Below, piece by piece: positions 41,286 to 49,098 of a stretch of DNA of 64,000 bases (position 1 is the stretch's first letter; each line of letters starts with the position of its first letter). The stretch is from assembly GCA_017444825.1 (NCBI GenBank), contig JAFSVU010000014.1, positions 1 through 64,000 of the forward strand, in the 5' to 3' direction. Source of the stretch: Clostridia bacterium. GTDB taxonomy: Bacteria; Bacillota; Clostridia; UBA1212. Under the pieces are notes generated by a model. The model saw only the letters and a program-made list of their open reading frames with translations, did no database searches and was not told the DNA's origin. Both the position numbers and the translations under genes were made by a program.

Positions 41286-42572
41286 TTACAGATTAACTGC
41301 GCCTTTATTCATCATCTCCTGGAGGCTCATCAGGATGCCCAGTTTTGCGTGGGCCCAGGTCAGGCCGCCCTGAAAATAGACCGCGTAAGGCTCCCTTATG
41401 GGACCGTCCGCCGAAAGCTCGATGGAGGACCCCTGAATGAAGGCACCCGCAGCCATGACCACCTTATCGTCGTAGCCCGGCATGTCCCAGGGAAGGGGCG
41501 TCACGTAGGCATCCACCGGAGCCGCAAGCTGAATTCCCTTGCAGAAAGCCAGCATGGCCTCCTCGCTGCCGAGCTCTATGGACTGTATGATATCGTGGCG
41601 TTTTTCCGACGCCTTCGGCACGCAATTGAAACCAAGGGGCTCATAAAGGGCGGCCGCAAATATGGCGCCCTTTTCGGCCGCCGCGGTCACTGTAGGAGCA
41701 AGGAAAAAGCCCTGGTAGAGTCTGTCGATTATGCCGAAATTGGCCCCGACTTCGCTTCCCAGGCCCGGCGCGGAAAGCCTGTAGCCGCACCTTTCAACAC
41801 ACTCCTTCGTTCCGCAGATATATCCGCCTGAAGGCGCAAGTCCGCCGCCCGGGTTCTTTATAAGGGACCCCACGGTCATGTCCGCTCCCACGTCCGATGG
41901 CTCGATAAGCTCCGTAAACTCGCCGTAGCAGTTGTCCACCATGACCTTGACTCCGGGTTTCAGCTTCTTTACGAAAGCTATCGCCTCACCTATCTCATCC
42001 ACCGAAAAGCTGGGCCTCATGGAGTAGCCCTTGGATCGCTGGATCGCCACAAGCGCCGTGTCACTGCTTATAGCCCCCGCAATGGCGTCAAAGTCAAAGC
42101 GGCCCTCCCGGTTCAGCTCCACCTGGGAATAGTTCACACCCATTTCGGCAAGGGAACAGGGGCTGGGCCTTATGCCTATAACTTCCTGCAGCGTATCGTA
42201 TGGGGCACCGTTTATGGAAAGAAGCTCCTCGCCGGGCCTCAGGTTTGCTGAAAGAGCAACGGCCAAAGCATGGGTCCCGCATGTGATCTGTGGCCTCACC
42301 AATGCCGCCTCCGTGTGGAACGTATCCGAATAGACTTTTTCCAGGGTGTCCCGTCCAAGGTCGTCGTAACCGTAGCCCGTGCTTCCCGCAAAGCAGGCCG
42401 CGCTGACCCGGTTTTTGCTCATCGCCAGCAGCACCTTCGCCTGGTTGCGCTCCGCGATCTCATCTATTTCTTTGAATCTCTTTTCAAGCTTCGAAAGGGC
42501 AGCCTCTCCGTAAGCGATCACTCTGTCCGATATTCCCAGCTCATTCAGCAGTTTGTTCTTATTATCCGTCAT
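41286..42572 (-). CDS. Cystathionine beta-lyase family / aluminium-resistance-type PLP protein (YnbB-like)
   Basis: 428 residues of fold-type I, matching the methionine gamma-lyase family proteins once called aluminium resistance. The motifs GYGYDDLGRDTLEKVY, CGTHALAVALSANLRPGE, VDNCYGEFTE and SLIKNPGGGLAPSGGY (PLP lysine) are typical. The physiological reaction is not established; sulfur amino acid lyase activity is inferred from the fold. The ribosome-binding purines before its ATG are part of array F. Confidence 0.85.
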   Translation of the reverse strand: MTDNKNKLLNELGISDRVIAYGEAALSKLEKRFKEIDEIAERNQAKVLLAMSKNRVSAACFAGSTGYGYDDLGRDTLEKVYSDTFHTEAALVRPQITCGTHALAVALSANLRPGEELLSINGAPYDTLQEVIGIRPSPCSLAEMGVNYSQVELNREGRFDFDAIAGAISSDTALVAIQRSKGYSMRPSFSVDEIGEAIAFVKKLKPGVKVMVDNCYGEFTELIEPSDVGADMTVGSLIKNPGGGLAPSGGYICGTKECVERCGYRLSAPGLGSEVGANFGIIDRLYQGFFLAPTVTAAAEKGAIFAAALYEPLGFNCVPKASEKRHDIIQSIELGSEEAMLAFCKGIQLAAPVDAYVTPLPWDMPGYDDKVVMAAGAFIQGSSIELSADGPIREPYAVYFQGGLTWAHAKLGILMSLQEMMNKGAVNL

Positions 42573-43700: not shown

Positions 43701-45227
43701 TCAGTCAAAATACATATTGTCGATAAATTTTTCGCTGAAGTTCTTCGCGTCGTTAAGCGAGAAAGTTTCAAATTTCAAAGCAAGGGCCGATGCCTTTTCG
43801 AGAAACGTCGGGTCGTCTCCCGCAGCCGTCGCACCGTAAAGCGATGTGTTTCCGGGCGCTTTGCACTTTCCCTTGAATTCCGGCGGCAGCAGCCCTGTCC
43901 TTATCGCGGCGGAAGGATCAATGTGGGTTCCCAGGCCCCCCGCGGTGTAGACAGTCTCAATATCTTTTGCCTCAAGACCCGCCTTTTCGAGAAGTATTTC
44001 GACACCTGTCCGGATTGCGGCCTTGGCGAGTTGAAATTCTCTTACGTCCTTTCTGGTAAGAGAAATGCCTGTCTGAACAGGTTTCTCCCCGCCCGGAGTT
44101 TTAAGGAAGCCACATATCTCAAGGTCCTCCTCCATAAGACCCGTCTCGTCAATGACCCCTCTTTCGAGAAGCACCGCCACAAGACTCAAAAGTCCCGAGC
44201 CGCAGATCCCCACAGGAGCCTTATCGCCAATGGTCCCGATGACAAGCCCTCTCTCCGAGTCCTTCACATCCGAGATCGCACCCTCTATGCCGCCTGTGCC
44301 GCAGCTGATATTGGCGCCTTCAAAGCACGGTCCCGCCGCGGAAGAAGTCGCATAATACCTGCCGCCTGACTTTAAGACCATTTCGCCGTTGGTTCCCAGG
44401 TCTATGAAAAGCGTGGGTGGAAGATCCGGATCTTCGAGGTAAAGCTCAGCCCCCGCCACCACGTCAGCGCCAATGAAAGCATCCGCAGAAGGAAGGACCG
44501 TCACGTTTTCGGCATTGACGCCAATTTCCGCGCCTTTTAACTGCCTCGCTTCTGTAAACGCCGGTGTAAAGGGATAATGGCCCATGCTCTCGGGCGACAC
44601 TCCCATGAACAGGTGCTGCATCGTGGTGTTTCCTGCAATGTATACGTTCCCGATCTTCAGGCCGGGGTGCTTTTTTCTTCCGGCTTCAAGCATATTGTTT
44701 ATGCATAGTCTAATGTCGCCTGTCATTCTCTCAAGACCGCCGGGAGTTTTTGAAAACGCGATCCTCGAAATGACGTCGGCGCCGTATTTTTTCTGAGGAT
44801 TTAGCCCCGCAAAGTGGCCAAGAGTCCTGCCGCAGCACTTCAGCACGGCCTCAACGGTAGTGGTTCCGATATCCACGGCCAGAAATCCGTCGCTGCTTTC
44901 AGACTCCCCGCAGGCATCGCAGTTTTCCCCGGAAACATCGACATTTGTACCACCCAGCAGCAGTGTCTCGGGAAAGCCCACGGTGACAGCCCCCTCATTC
45001 GGGACAGCGCTCCGGCAAAGCTTCACGGGCATGACTTTCTTAACGCCGTCCGTGACCGTCTCGATGTACCCTGAGCACTTGCCGCATCGGCCGTTTCCGC
45101 CGCAGGGAAGATCGATATCAAGGCCCATAAGTCTTAGGGCCTCGGATGCGGTCATACCTCTGTATATATCCGGGACGGCAACTCTTATATAGCCCCCGTC
45201 TCTTTCCGCAGATATCTTACCCGCCAA
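43701..45227 (-). CDS. Reductive activator of corrinoid methyltransferases (RACE, RamA-like)
   Basis: 508 residues. An N-terminal 2Fe-2S-type segment (LPCGGNGRCGKCSGY with the cysteine pattern C-X5-C-X2-C and a later LCRS) precedes an ASKHA ATPase domain (LAVDIGTTTVEAVL, IDLGTNGEMVL, GICGSGLLS). Such proteins use ATP and an electron to return inactive Co(II) corrinoid to Co(I). The TTG start lies in the end of the UroD-family gene with GAGGAG upstream, an 11-base overlap. Together with the two genes upstream it forms a methyl-transfer set. Confidence 0.85.
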   Translation of the reverse strand: MAGKISAERDGGYIRVAVPDIYRGMTASEALRLMGLDIDLPCGGNGRCGKCSGYIETVTDGVKKVMPVKLCRSAVPNEGAVTVGFPETLLLGGTNVDVSGENCDACGESESSDGFLAVDIGTTTVEAVLKCCGRTLGHFAGLNPQKKYGADVISRIAFSKTPGGLERMTGDIRLCINNMLEAGRKKHPGLKIGNVYIAGNTTMQHLFMGVSPESMGHYPFTPAFTEARQLKGAEIGVNAENVTVLPSADAFIGADVVAGAELYLEDPDLPPTLFIDLGTNGEMVLKSGGRYYATSSAAGPCFEGANISCGTGGIEGAISDVKDSERGLVIGTIGDKAPVGICGSGLLSLVAVLLERGVIDETGLMEEDLEICGFLKTPGGEKPVQTGISLTRKDVREFQLAKAAIRTGVEILLEKAGLEAKDIETVYTAGGLGTHIDPSAAIRTGLLPPEFKGKCKAPGNTSLYGATAAGDDPTFLEKASALALKFETFSLNDAKNFSEKFIDNMYFD

Positions 45228-46344
45228 TTTTTTTGATCTCCTCGCAATAGTAAACGACCAGCTCGAATTTCGTACCCGGCATCAGCCTGTGGTCCGGGCA
45301 GGGTATGAAGCCTCCCAGGGCGGAAAGCCTCTTCATTCTCTCAAGCTCTACGTCAACGGCTTTTTTGTCCTTTCTGAGGGCAGTCTTGTCCATACCTCCC
45401 ACGCCCAGCACCGCTTTCCCGTAGCGCTTTCTGGCCTTCTCAAACTGGTCACCCCAGGTGCCCACCTCTATGGGGAACATCACGTTGACGCCGTTTTCCA
45501 CCCAGACCGGCAGCAGCTTTTCCACCACGCCGTCGCAGTCGAGAGATATGATGTCGATGCCGTGGGAGTGGCACAGCTCGGTGCGCTTCCTGTAGTGCTT
45601 TGCGCAGAGTTCCTCAAATTTCACGGGACTCAAAAGGGGTCCGCCGTTAAAGCATATATCCTCCCAGTAGTGGGCAAAGTCGAATTTGGCGCCGGTCTCA
45701 AGCACCGCCTTCGCCACCTCGTACTGCATGTCCGCGTAGGCGTCCACAATGTCCCCGAATAGCTCCTCGTCCTCGTCGTACATGAGATAGCTCATACCCA
45801 TGACGGACGTCATGTCCCTGATGCTTCCCATTACGGAACCAAGGTGTATCCCGATGGGCACATTGGTTTTTTCATATATATCTCTGTTGAAATTTCTGAA
45901 AAAATCGAAATTGACTCTTTTTTCGATATCTACGGCCATTTTGGGCCTGAAAAGGGTCTCAAAAGCCTCCCTGTCTTTTAGCAGGTAATCGTATTCGGCA
46001 GGTATGGAAACAGTGCCGGGGTAGATCTTCTCGATGATGCCGTTGCCGTTTTGGACCGCTTTGGCGCCGTCCGGAAACTCCTTCACGACTTTTCGCTCAA
46101 AGGGGGGCAGAAGACCGTTGTAGCCGCAGTAATTGTGCTGCCAGTTGTAGTCCCAGCCTATTATCCTGTCAAGCTCGTTGTCTTTGGGGCCGCCGTCGCA
46201 ATATCCCTCGAGAATAGACCTGTCGATATATCCCTGATCTGCCCACTCGGAAAGAAGCTCGGGCCAGTAACCGAAATGCACGGCAGGCATCCTGTCGGCA
46301 CCCCTAAAGTGCAATATGTTGTAGGTCCTCTCACGATTATTCAT
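45217..46344 (-). CDS. Uroporphyrinogen decarboxylase-family methyltransferase (MtaA/CmuA-like)
   Basis: 375 residues with the UroD fold. HSHGIDIISLDCDGV, PIEVGTWGD and GFIPCPDHRLMPGT resemble the zinc-binding UroD-family methyltransferases (MtaA/CmuA type) that move methyl groups between a corrinoid protein and an acceptor or substrate. No signal peptide. It overlaps both neighbours by a few bases (4 with the corrinoid protein, 11 with the activator). The methyl donor is unknown. True heme UroD is unlikely given this company. Confidence 0.82.
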   Translation of the reverse strand: MNNRERTYNILHFRGADRMPAVHFGYWPELLSEWADQGYIDRSILEGYCDGGPKDNELDRIIGWDYNWQHNYCGYNGLLPPFERKVVKEFPDGAKAVQNGNGIIEKIYPGTVSIPAEYDYLLKDREAFETLFRPKMAVDIEKRVNFDFFRNFNRDIYEKTNVPIGIHLGSVMGSIRDMTSVMGMSYLMYDEDEELFGDIVDAYADMQYEVAKAVLETGAKFDFAHYWEDICFNGGPLLSPVKFEELCAKHYRKRTELCHSHGIDIISLDCDGVVEKLLPVWVENGVNVMFPIEVGTWGDQFEKARKRYGKAVLGVGGMDKTALRKDKKAVDVELERMKRLSALGGFIPCPDHRLMPGTKFELVVYYCEEIKKIGG

Positions 46345-46988
46345 TTTACGTTCATTTCCTTGAGAGCCTTCTCCGCCACCTCTGCTGCGCTTGCGGCATC
46401 CAGCGTATAGTAGTCCGCGCCGATCTCATCCGCAAAAGCCTGTGTCACGGGAGCACCGCCCACCATGACCCTGACCTGATCCCTTATTCCGGCGGCCTTC
46501 AGCGCTTCGATAACGTCCCTCTGACCGTTCATTGTCGTGGTAAGAAGGGCCGAGAGGCAGACGATCTGTGCGCCGCTCTCCTTCACCGCTTCCACCACTC
46601 TCTCCGGGTCCACATCCGAGCCCAGGTCTATGCATTCGATGCCTCTTCCCTCGATCATCATCTTGACCAGGTTTTTCCCGATGTCATGCATGTCGCCCTT
46701 GACTGTGCAGATGACAGCCTTTCCCAGGGGCTCCGCGCCGGCCTTCGCTAATGCAGGCTTCAGCACGCCCATGCCCTTATTCATCGCCCTCGCGGCAACG
46801 AGCACCTCAGGCACGAAGACTTCATTGGCTTTGAACCTCTCGCCGATTACATTCATGCCCGCCATAAGTCCCTCGGTAAGTATCGCCTCCGGGTTCTCCC
46901 CCTCGGAAAGCGCCTGCTCCACCAGTGCCACAACGTCCTTCGCCTTGCCGCCGATGACCTTCTCGGCAATTTCCTCACAATAGCCCAT
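46341..46988 (-). CDS. Corrinoid (B12)-binding methyl-carrier protein
   Basis: 215 residues. An N-terminal helical cap (about 1-90) and a B12-binding Rossmann domain: KGDMHDIGKNLV contains the cobalt-ligating DxHxxG, and CLSALLTTTM and MVGGAPVT contain later corrin contacts. The partner for the UroD-family enzyme (4-base overlap) and the activator downstream. The 15-base gap to yhbY upstream suggests the set could be part of a longer transcript. Confidence 0.88.
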   Translation of the reverse strand: MGYCEEIAEKVIGGKAKDVVALVEQALSEGENPEAILTEGLMAGMNVIGERFKANEVFVPEVLVAARAMNKGMGVLKPALAKAGAEPLGKAVICTVKGDMHDIGKNLVKMMIEGRGIECIDLGSDVDPERVVEAVKESGAQIVCLSALLTTTMNGQRDVIEALKAAGIRDQVRVMVGGAPVTQAFADEIGADYYTLDAASAAEVAEKALKEMNVK

Positions 46989-47003: not shown

Positions 47004-47297
47004 TCATTTCTTTTCCGGATTTTTACGATATAAAACAACAGTAAACCCGACGACCTGGATCACCTCGGCCGACAGTTCCTTCGCAAAGAAATCCGCCACC
47101 TCCCGGGGATCCTCCATCGACGTGTCGAGCACCTTTATCTTGATAAGTTCTCTCGCCGTAAGGGCGTCATCCACCTGTGTGATCAGATTCTCTTCTATCC
47201 CGTTTTTGCCTATCTGCAGTATCGCCTGCATCTTGTTTGCCTGAGCTCTTAACGCCGCTCTCTCTTTTCCGCGAAGCATACCCGCCTCCAAATTCAA
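47004..47297 (-). CDS. yhbY: YhbY-family RNA-binding protein (CRM domain)
   Basis: 97 residues, a single CRM domain: RALKAQANKMQ-like N-terminus, IGKNGI and VLYRKN are the family marks. Associated with large-subunit ribosome assembly. The start overlaps the upstream SPOUT gene by four bases. Short but of normal family length. Confidence 0.9.
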   Translation of the reverse strand: MNLEAGMLRGKERAALRAQANKMQAILQIGKNGIEENLITQVDDALTARELIKIKVLDTSMEDPREVADFFAKELSAEVIQVVGFTVVLYRKNPEKK

Positions 47298-48151
47298 TGT
47301 CTTTTAACGATCCCCTTTTGTCTCAGGGAGCTTTCATAACAAACCAATGTGGCCGCAAATCCCACGTTAAGCGACTCCACGCTGCCCAGCATCGGTATGA
47401 TAACAGTGCTTGAAAAAGGCTTTCCACGCCAATCCGGCGTTATGCCCTTGTACTCGTTCCCGCACACCACGGCGATCCTGCCGGAGTAGTCCTCGTCAAT
47501 GTAATTTTTCGTAGCGGTAAGGTCCGTCACCACAGTCTTGAAACCGTTCTTCTCAAGGAAACCGTAAAGCTCCTCCGCCTCAGCCTCCACGAATGGAACC
47601 GTAAAAGCAGCGCCAAGGCTCGACCTTATGAGCCTCGGATGGGTCATCCTGCAGCGCCTGTTAACGTAGATCGCAAATCCGCCCCCGCAGGCGTCAACTG
47701 TCCTAAGGATAGCGCCAATGTTCCCCGGCTGCTCAAGGCCGTCAAGCACGACCCCGGTCATGTTCTCACTGAGTTTTATGTCGCTGAGCCTCACCTTGGG
47801 AAGTACCGCAATTATAAAACAGTAATCCGCCCCGTCTCTGTCGCTGATCCTTCCGCAGGTCTTTTCCGATATGGCGTAGACTTCCTTTGCGGCCCTCATG
47901 ACACCCGCGAGCTTCTCCGCGTTCTCTTCGGCCTCTTTCCTCTCCGGGCACACCAGGAACATCCTTATCTCGATATTGTTTTTCAGCAGCATGTCGCAGG
48001 CCCAGTCCCCTTCGCAAACGAAAAGTCTGTCCGCATCCGGATCCTCCGCATATTCCTCGGGGAGTTTTTTTGCCAGCACCAGTCTATTGGCAAGTCTGGC
48101 CTGGGGACTTCCCGCCCCTACTGCTGTGAGATTTTTGAAAATGTCTGTCAT
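47294..48151 (-). CDS. SPOUT (TrmH/SpoU) RNA methyltransferase, copy 1
   Basis: 285 residues: N-terminal substrate-binding part and C-terminal trefoil knot. Motif 1 VLDGLEQPGNIGAILRT, motif 2 VVCGNEYKGI and motif 3 VESLNVGFAATLVCYE bind SAM and support 2'-O methylation of rRNA or tRNA ribose. It lies directly downstream of a second SPOUT gene of low overall similarity. Confidence 0.88.
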   Translation of the reverse strand: MTDIFKNLTAVGAGSPQARLANRLVLAKKLPEEYAEDPDADRLFVCEGDWACDMLLKNNIEIRMFLVCPERKEAEENAEKLAGVMRAAKEVYAISEKTCGRISDRDGADYCFIIAVLPKVRLSDIKLSENMTGVVLDGLEQPGNIGAILRTVDACGGGFAIYVNRRCRMTHPRLIRSSLGAAFTVPFVEAEAEELYGFLEKNGFKTVVTDLTATKNYIDEDYSGRIAVVCGNEYKGITPDWRGKPFSSTVIIPMLGSVESLNVGFAATLVCYESSLRQKGIVKRH

Positions 48152-48166: not shown

Positions 48167-48967
48167 TCAATATTTGTCTTTGCGCAGCCTGTACACGCCA
48201 ATGGCCGCCGCCACGGGAAGATTGAGCGAATCCACAGTATCCGCGTGCATGATCCTGACGGGCTGTCCCACATTGAGGAAGCTCTCCGGAAGCCCCGCCG
48301 CCTCGTTCCCGAGTATCAGCGTCGCAGGTCTTTCCGGGTCCGTTTCCACCGTTTCAATGGGTTTTCCATTCAGCATAAACGGGAAAAACTGCCTCTTACC
48401 GTCATTTCTTTCCGCAAGAGACTTTCTGTAGGCATCAAAGGTCTCAAATTCACTGATCCGGAGCCTGAACACCGCGCCCATCGACGCTCGCACAGTTTTC
48501 GGGTTATACACATCACAGCATGGTGTTATAAGAGCCAGATCGAATATCTCAAAGGCCGCCATGGTCCTCATTATGGTACCCAGATTTCCCATATCTCCGG
48601 GATTCACCAGCACCACGTGGTTCTCGCCGGGCTTCGGAAGCTCAAAGGACTTCTCAAACACCCCCACGGCGTAAACGTTCTCCTTCGGGTAGATCCGTGA
48701 GACCGCCTTGTCGTCGACAATAAACGGTATCCCGAGGGCCGCCGCCCGCTCTCTCAGCTTAACAACTCCGCCGTTTTCAAGGGAATTCTTCGTAACGACG
48801 ATCTTTTTCAGAATCCCGGGCTTCACCTCAGCCAGCTCGCAGGTCGGAAACACACCGCAGGAATAGGAATAACCAATGTCTCTCTTGTACGGCTTAAGAG
48901 GCATCCCGTCAGAGGTGCCCTGAGCCTTTATATCCTCGCCTTTGCGATCAAAACTTTTTTCCGTCAT
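48167..48967 (-). CDS. SPOUT (TrmH/SpoU) RNA methyltransferase, copy 2
   Basis: 266 residues. Motif 1 LVNPGDMGNLGTIMRT, motif 2 LILGNEAAGL and motif 3 SLNLPVAAAIGVYRL are complete. The ATG at 48967 has AAGGA six bases upstream; an ORF that starts 30 residues earlier runs through a strong hairpin and lacks conservation. It is the first gene of the YhbY run and sits 15 bases from copy 1. The target RNA site is unknown. Confidence 0.87.
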   Translation of the reverse strand: MTEKSFDRKGEDIKAQGTSDGMPLKPYKRDIGYSYSCGVFPTCELAEVKPGILKKIVVTKNSLENGGVVKLRERAAALGIPFIVDDKAVSRIYPKENVYAVGVFEKSFELPKPGENHVVLVNPGDMGNLGTIMRTMAAFEIFDLALITPCCDVYNPKTVRASMGAVFRLRISEFETFDAYRKSLAERNDGKRQFFPFMLNGKPIETVETDPERPATLILGNEAAGLPESFLNVGQPVRIMHADTVDSLNLPVAAAIGVYRLRKDKY

Positions 48968-49004
48968 TTGAAGTCCTTGAGGCAGGAAGCCCTTCTTATG
49001 CTCT

Positions 49005-49039
49005 AAATGCACGCATTTTTTCGGAAAACACGTGCATTT
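49005..49039. other. Perfect 9-bp inverted repeat upstream of SPOUT copy 2
   Basis: AAATGCACG and CGTGCATTT (49005-49013, 49031-49039), a hairpin or operator in the gap between the flavodoxin stop and the SPOUT start. It could be the flavodoxin terminator, but the T-run is short. Confidence 0.5.
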
Positions 49040-49098
49040 AAGGCGTCGTTTGCGCACCGGTATTATTTTCCGGTCTATCTTCTTTTAAAAGACCTGCG

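Follow-up and report, generated by a model that had tools for sequence, protein, structure and literature searches.

A corrinoid protein, a UroD-family methyltransferase and a RACo-type activator as the candidate core of a dispersed O-demethylation system in a Clostridia bacterium

In a stretch of 64,000 nucleotides from the Clostridia bacterium assembly GCA_017444825.1 (contig JAFSVU010000014.1, positions 1 to 64,000; hereafter the window), three overlapping genes encode a corrinoid protein, a UroD-family methyltransferase, here called UroD1, and a RACo-type reductive activator. On balance, we read this trio as the central part of a corrinoid-dependent system for O-demethylation, the other parts of which are dispersed in the genome of this gut bacterium, and which would carry a methyl group from an O-methyl donor via the corrinoid protein to homocysteine, yielding methionine. 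The locus is real and can probably be explained in outline by O-type UroD methyltransferases that feed homocysteine, with the parts scattered in this genome. The initial annotation had described the trio correctly as overlapping genes, the overlaps amounting to 4 bases between the corrinoid gene and UroD1 and 11 bases between UroD1 and the activator gene. It had also seen a set without a separate substrate methyltransferase; in our analysis, the half that looks missing at the locus is the acceptor half. The features at the center of the argument are the following:

46341-46988, minus strand: corrinoid (methyl-carrier) protein, 215 amino acids, Pfam domains B12-binding_2 and B12-binding
45217-46344, minus strand: UroD1, UroD-family methyltransferase, 375 amino acids (PF01208, 33.8 bits, E 2.5e-8)
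45532-45540, minus strand: first half of the predicted UroD1 metal site, D269-C270-D271, then G272; invariant in 82 aligned UroD1 rows
45289-45291, minus strand: second half of the predicted UroD1 metal site, H352 of a DHR motif; His in 82/82 UroD1 rows
43701-45227, minus strand: RACo/RamA-type reductive activator, 508 amino acids, RACo middle (PF17651) and C-terminal (PF14574) domains

Why should a UroD-family protein be the substrate enzyme? MtvB, OdmB, VdmB and CdmB all belong to the UroD superfamily (PMC13222342), and a corrinoid protein with a UroD protein can therefore be a complete substrate half. The supposed lack of a substrate methyltransferase thus does not follow, nor is the earlier separation of MtvB from UroD as a different kind of enzyme borne out. 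MtaB- and MttB-like families were not found among the eight neighboring proteins scanned; the MttB/MtbB type (MTTB, PF06253) was not searched for genome-wide. UroD1 matched no NCBIfam model, TIGR01463 (the MtaA/CmuA family) included at E 0.001, and a PDB sequence search with UroD1 alone gave no match at E 0.001; with profiles built from UroD1 and from a paralogue, UroD2, the PDB matches were weak, in both cases best to 4wsh (E 0.14 and 0.21). The AlphaFold2 model of UroD1 (mean predicted local distance difference test score, pLDDT, 89.1) is closest to the UROD structure 1j93 (Z 23.5, root-mean-square deviation 3.5, 311 aligned residues) and also resembles the methyltransferase 4ay7 (Z 20.7, deviation 4.2, 314 aligned residues); the UroD2 model (pLDDT 91) has the UROD fold as well.

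The predicted metal site sets these two families apart from a third paralogue of related genomes, UroD3. The D-x-D-G motif of UroD1 occupies the place of H-x-C-G in UroD3, and the column aligned with H352 is Cys in 38/39 UroD3 rows. By family, D-x-D-G...DHR is found in 81 of 82 UroD1 proteins, D-[ST]-D-G...DHQ in all 26 UroD2 proteins and H-x-C-G...C in 38 of 39 UroD3 proteins, and the latter, His-Cys-Cys pattern occurs in 0/108 full-length UroD1 and UroD2 proteins (0/82 and 0/26, respectively). When UroD3 is aligned with 4ay7, a methylcobalamin:CoM methyltransferase that we take to be MtaA, H-x-C-G and the late Cys are common to both. At the metal loop the automatic alignment set UroD3 off by one column, and the columns were anchored on the conserved glycine; that the UroD1/UroD2 and UroD3 sites can be equated is supported by other UroD paralogues in the clusters, whose sites, with His and Asp or Cys, are intermediate between the two. 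In the superfamily, S-methyltransferases bind zinc via His-Cys-Cys, a pattern linked with sulfur or selenium substrates, and O-type enzymes have carboxylates or non-ligands in place of one Cys or both, the carboxylate replacement being linked with oxygen substrates (PMC10418091). The acidic D-x-D...H triad of UroD1 and UroD2, called O-type here because its ligands are hard, thus suggests an oxygen-linked methyl donor, and the initial proposal that UroD1 acts on the substrate itself gains support from it: UroD1 is probably an O-demethylase. UroD1 and UroD2 are two conserved UroD subfamilies, unnamed by NCBIfam, that can now be given a testable reaction, a definite set of partners and a predicted acceptor.

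The partner genes, which the initial annotation had thought might lie elsewhere, are found on three other contigs of the genome (2.45 Mb, 56 contigs, 97% complete): UroD2 on C22, a stand-alone homocysteine methyltransferase (HMT, PF02574) on C29 and a DUF2284 protein on C23. UroD1 and UroD2 are its only two PF01208 genes, and UroD3 gave no match at E 1e-20. UroD2 shares 76-89% identity with its counterparts in three same-genus genomes and 72-75% with UroD1-adjacent copies in six others, DUF2284 is 41% identical to an in-cluster copy, and HMT shares 59% with an in-cluster HMT versus 34% with the genome's own MetH. PF02574 is the sole Pfam match of HMT, which keeps the cysteine motifs NC[SG] and GGCCG of its family; its best PDB matches are MetH-type, the closest being 1q7m, a 5-methyltetrahydrofolate S-homocysteine methyltransferase. 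The genome check for a methyltetrahydrofolate methyltransferase, proposed earlier, yielded none apart from MetH, in which the genome's only PF00809 (Pterin_bind) match lies. A carboxylesterase gene precedes UroD2, with 15 bases between the two; the gene ahead of HMT encodes an SGNH/GDSL-type hydrolase, and that ahead of DUF2284 is GH127-like (glycoside hydrolase). The MtaA/CmuA models match UroD3 well and UroD1 not at all; against the TIGR01463 cut-off of 235.4, UroD3 scores 122.5 bits and UroD2 25.9 bits, both below.

The other two members of the trio are readily placed. The corrinoid protein reaches 213.1 bits against TIGR02370, below the cut-off of 215.3, has 1y80 as its closest PDB match (E 1e-57) and carries the D-x-H-x-x-G cobalt-ligand motif that is found in 60 of the 62 corrinoid proteins examined. 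PF02310 has three matches in the genome, two of them, MetH and the window's corrinoid gene, above the family cut-off; the third, on contig C49 (27.8 bits, below the cut-off), reads as a radical-SAM methylthiotransferase and was excluded as a corrinoid protein. The activator, the genome's sole PF14574 gene, matches PDB 3zyy (presumably RACo) at E 1.9e-57, and its N-terminal Cx5Cx2C motif, which we take to be a [2Fe-2S] motif, is present in 51/52 activators examined. In five relatives, the corrinoid open frame spans about 500-540 amino acids (L093:4568-6085, L111:11070-12674, L117:7598-9211, L142:2493-4031 and L056:13436-15064) and may be a true fusion or a frame running upstream; the extension in L056 is an AraC-type regulator domain.

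Relatives of UroD1 were collected from 97 genomes including the window's (40 with a match) and from 80 public contigs, the best 80 of 559 confirmed stretches, whose titles mostly indicate gut metagenome genomes, many of them ruminant. One of these relatives, the named strain Eisenbergiella porci WCA-389-WT-23B (L107), has a 68% identical UroD1 close to the end of a contig. In related gut Clostridia a cluster recurs that comprises the corrinoid gene, UroD1, UroD2, UroD3, RACo, DUF2284 and sometimes HMT. Leaving out 3 same-genus loci of the 80, UroD1 shares its locus with the corrinoid gene in 56, RACo in 47, DUF2284 in 45, UroD3 in 41, UroD2 in 26 and HMT in 5 of 77 loci, and at least one of the partners other than HMT is present in 63. 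The trio itself is kept in identical order in four of five same-genus genomes (G001-G004), with identities of 78-89% for UroD1, 79-93% for the corrinoid protein and 45-61% for the activator; the arrangement is therefore not due to chance. In the fifth (G005), UroD2 adjoins UroD1 on a 3.4-kb contig. DUF2284 is cysteine-rich, with 7-17 Cys in 46 copies (for example L072:1426-1968 and L058:8619-9179). A protein of 402-442 amino acids (L076:10920-12182; similar in L089, L096, L099, L100 and L142) recurs beside UroD1 or the cluster in these 6 loci; the L076 copy has no Pfam or NCBIfam match, and from its sequence (YYGCCEPL) it looks like a further, distant UroD-type protein.

Co-occurrence was surveyed in 31 genomes of the order (cut-offs E 1e-100 for UroD1 and E 1e-60 for HMT and UroD2). 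UroD1 is present in 17 of them, and all 13 genomes with HMT are among these. RACo (21/31) is found in 17/17 UroD1 genomes and 4/14 others, and UroD2 (15/31) in 14/17 and 1/14, the one other genome, G012, having a broken-off UroD1 match. One-sided Fisher tests against UroD1 gave 1.2e-5 for HMT, 3.2e-5 for UroD2 and 2.3e-5 for RACo; for UroD3, the association was not significant (2/17 versus 0/14, p 0.29). Close UroD3 copies (at least 56% identity) occur in two genomes, neither of which has HMT, and two more genomes show a 26% match only. HMT and UroD3 were never met together, neither in the 77 loci (5 with HMT, 41 with UroD3; chance 0.02) nor in the 17 UroD1 genomes (13 and 2; chance 0.04). Two of the 13 HMT genes lie beside UroD1 (G024, G030), one is on the UroD1 contig at a distance of about 50 kb (G001), and ten, including that of the window's genome, are on other contigs; the retention of an unlinked HMT carries more weight than adjacency by itself.

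The scheme we propose builds on gene content, conserved clustering, co-occurrence, the alternation of HMT and UroD3, and motif classes, all read from sequences; the presence of a bound metal, the direction in which the methyl group moves, an oxygen donor atom and homocysteine as the acceptor are our inference. UroD1, together with UroD2, would bind a methyl ether via the predicted Asp-x-Asp...His metal site and pass its methyl group on to the corrinoid protein in the Co(I) state. HMT would then move it from the methyl-corrinoid to homocysteine to form methionine, and the RACo-type activator would re-reduce the corrinoid protein upon oxidation, with DUF2284 as a conserved accessory. But what about relatives without HMT? 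In these, UroD3, MtaA-like and with a His-Cys-Cys thiol site, may take the acceptor role; the main reason for assigning it a thiol acceptor, most likely homocysteine, is that HMT alternates with this MtaA-like, thiol-type protein.

Several observations weigh against this model. To our knowledge, no relative of UroD1 or UroD2 has a measured activity. The D-D-H triad lies outside the published O-type patterns we met, as the His is also changed to Asp and the late Cys to His; moreover, CdmB and the Moorella O-demethylase function without zinc (PMC13222342), and the metal-site argument is therefore not decisive. In 14/77 loci, some of them at contig ends, UroD1 has no corrinoid, RACo, DUF2284, UroD2 or UroD3 gene within reach, and 9 of 42 loci with corrinoid and RACo genes have neither HMT nor UroD3 nearby, HMT being unlinked in the window's genome too. 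Of the order's 12 genera only 2 have HMT, so that its co-occurrence is not phylogenetically independent and the Fisher values overstate independence, and the alternation rests on two UroD3 genomes and five HMT loci. UroD2 was not found in three UroD1 genomes, G017 (96% complete), G001 and G029, and may therefore be dispensable; two others, G011 (75% complete) and G014 (UroD1 just 47% identical), contain neither HMT nor a close UroD3. Finally, the corrinoid gene is probably co-transcribed with YhbY, which ends 15 bases before its start, and not with catabolic genes, which is odd for a catabolic function.

The least certain part of the model is the donor. The trio in the window is placed among housekeeping genes and is uninformative on this point. 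We tentatively favor O-methylated plant-cell-wall sugars, such as 4-O-methylglucuronate and 2-O-methyl fucose or xylose. On a bolder and less likely reading, the pathway would be an anaerobic, folate-free corrinoid route that delivers the methyl group of such sugars straight to homocysteine and is widespread in ruminant gut Clostridia. Inside or in line with relatives' clusters are genes for GH95 (L094, with a like gene in L100), cellulase-like (L094, L100, L138), GH127-like (L125) and GH2 (L067) proteins, a heparinase-like protein with a KDPG-aldolase/PfkB protein (L060 and L115, which are one locus), and alpha-rhamnosidases. Among the 25 of 67 families listed for 77 proteins of UroD1 operons or clusters are cellulase-like (3), GH95 (2), GH32 (2), MFS_2 sugar transport (2), DUF5722 (4) and two alpha-rhamnosidase domains (2 and 2, possibly identical proteins), versus MGH1-like glycosidase (2) and trehalase (2), again possibly identical proteins, among the 25 of 128 listed for 96 control proteins at distances above 3 kb. 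The near set started from 76 rows, of which 4 were dropped (one for its short length, three because L130 repeats L125) and to which 5 in-cluster proteins were added; from 110 controls, 3 were dropped and the last 11 left out. Since the listing covers the first 25 families of each set and some loci share synteny, this comparison is no more than suggestive; it favors plant-wall carbohydrate, hence O-methyl sugars, though not strongly. In the available text of the open-licence literature searched, we found nothing on corrinoid demethylation of O-methyl sugars, and DUF2284 alongside corrinoids was met only in a selenoproteome review. A methylated-sugar donor would suggest how anaerobes can remove methyl ethers on plant polysaccharides in the absence of oxygen, and would show rumen methyl groups entering methionine instead of folate.

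The main rival keeps the same machinery and supplies it with a methoxylated aromatic from plant walls (ferulate, sinapate or a lignan), as for MtvB, OdmB and VdmB. Methoxyaromatics are the substrates of known UroD-superfamily O-demethylases (PMC13222342), the carboxylesterase ahead of UroD2 fits such a donor, and one relative's operon contains an old-yellow-enzyme-type oxidoreductase (PF00724) and an FAD_binding_2 protein. However, UroD1 is likened to MtvB and OdmB by description, not by sequence, and several operon-linked genes in relatives encode glycosidases or sugar transporters; because glycosidases occur in some of these operons, we place O-methyl sugars above methoxyphenols and regard an aromatic donor as rather unlikely. 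A methyl-sulfur or methyl-selenium system, in which UroD1 would demethylate S- or Se-methyl compounds, is improbable. Its overall layout is that of type 1 mlp clusters, in which a corrinoid protein and an activator accompany several UroD proteins and a folate methyltransferase is lacking (PMC10418091), and a PF06838 gene, methionine gamma-lyase in Pfam naming, lies downstream of the trio; yet His-Cys-Cys is missing from all 108 UroD1 and UroD2 proteins, and the PF06838 gene, which lies beyond a PAP2 gene, is near the trio in same-genus loci only (0/77 others). Less probable still is that the activator mainly serves MetH, with the corrinoid/UroD pair as a side passenger. MetH (L050:4059-6512, 817 amino acids, behind MetF) has no match to the reactivation domain PF02965, and upstream of it, where a separate reactivation protein was looked for, none of three open reading frames without Pfam match was recognized as one; the two whose sequences were inspected are unlike such a protein, the 253-residue one resembling a lipoprotein. 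With a single PF14574 gene in the genome, the window's activator may thus be a candidate for reactivating MetH and may serve both; against a main role there, it overlaps UroD1 here, shares the UroD1 locus in 47/77 relatives and tracks UroD1 across the order (17/17 versus 4/14 genomes).

The methyltransferase II of acetogen three-component O-demethylases is folate-type, whereas in the O-demethylation system proposed here the acceptor enzyme appears to be a homocysteine methyltransferase or a thiol-type UroD, and a PF00809 methyltransferase II separate from MetH was not found in the 97% complete genome. Both a UroD-superfamily methyltransferase I and a small corrinoid protein with a RACo-type activator in the operon are present, as in those systems and CdmBCA, which combine such a methyltransferase, a dedicated corrinoid protein and an activating enzyme (PMC13222342); unlike there, DUF2284 and a pair of substrate-type UroD proteins are recurrent here. 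Type 1 mlp clusters, described by Kountz and Balskus from anaerobes (73% Firmicutes) with a suggested recycling into methionine, likewise combine more than one UroD protein with a corrinoid protein and a RACE activator and lack a folate methyltransferase (PMC10418091). This layout is seen in our relatives' loci and is dispersed in the window's genome; the mlp UroD proteins have His-Cys-Cys, several Mlps1 excepted (PMC10418091), whereas UroD1 and UroD2 have D-x-D...H and only UroD3 has His-Cys-Cys. The soluble coenzyme M methyltransferases MtaA and MtbA (4ay7) share the UroD fold and, with UroD3, H-x-C-G and the late Cys, but UroD1 has no NCBIfam match, UroD2 a weak one, and the metal triad differs. 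CmuA joins methyltransferase I and corrinoid domain in one polypeptide (PMC13222342), unlike the separate genes found here. MesA-MesC core methionine synthases are predicted to methylate homocysteine independently of folate, with corrinoid proteins as the methyl source (PMC7857596); unlike these MetE-related proteins, the acceptor enzyme here is a PF02574 homocysteine methyltransferase and has no MetE-type domain.

The neighborhood of the trio comprises the following genes:

47004-47297, minus strand: YhbY (TIGR00253, above cut-off)
47294-48151, minus strand: SpoU-family RNA methylase (PF00588, 100.2 bits)
48167-49057, minus strand: second SpoU-family RNA methylase (PF00588, 97.5 bits)
41286-42572: PF06838 enzyme (578 bits)

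On the minus strand, the order is two SpoU-type methylases, YhbY, corrinoid gene, UroD1, activator gene, PAP2 phosphatase and PF06838 enzyme. A promoter scan found 6 promoter-like sites versus a shuffle mean of 6.3, none of them between YhbY and the corrinoid gene. The link to YhbY and SPOUT genes, which the initial annotation had called unusual, is real, though confined to the window's genome and G001-G004: it was seen in none of 22 other-genus UroD1 loci in one set and none of 77 in a larger one, and YhbY, both SpoU genes, the PAP2 gene and the PF06838 gene are each absent from all 77 loci outside the genus. The YhbY context seems to reflect a move of the trio at the level of the genus; we see it neither as a functional partnership nor as a part of the mechanism.

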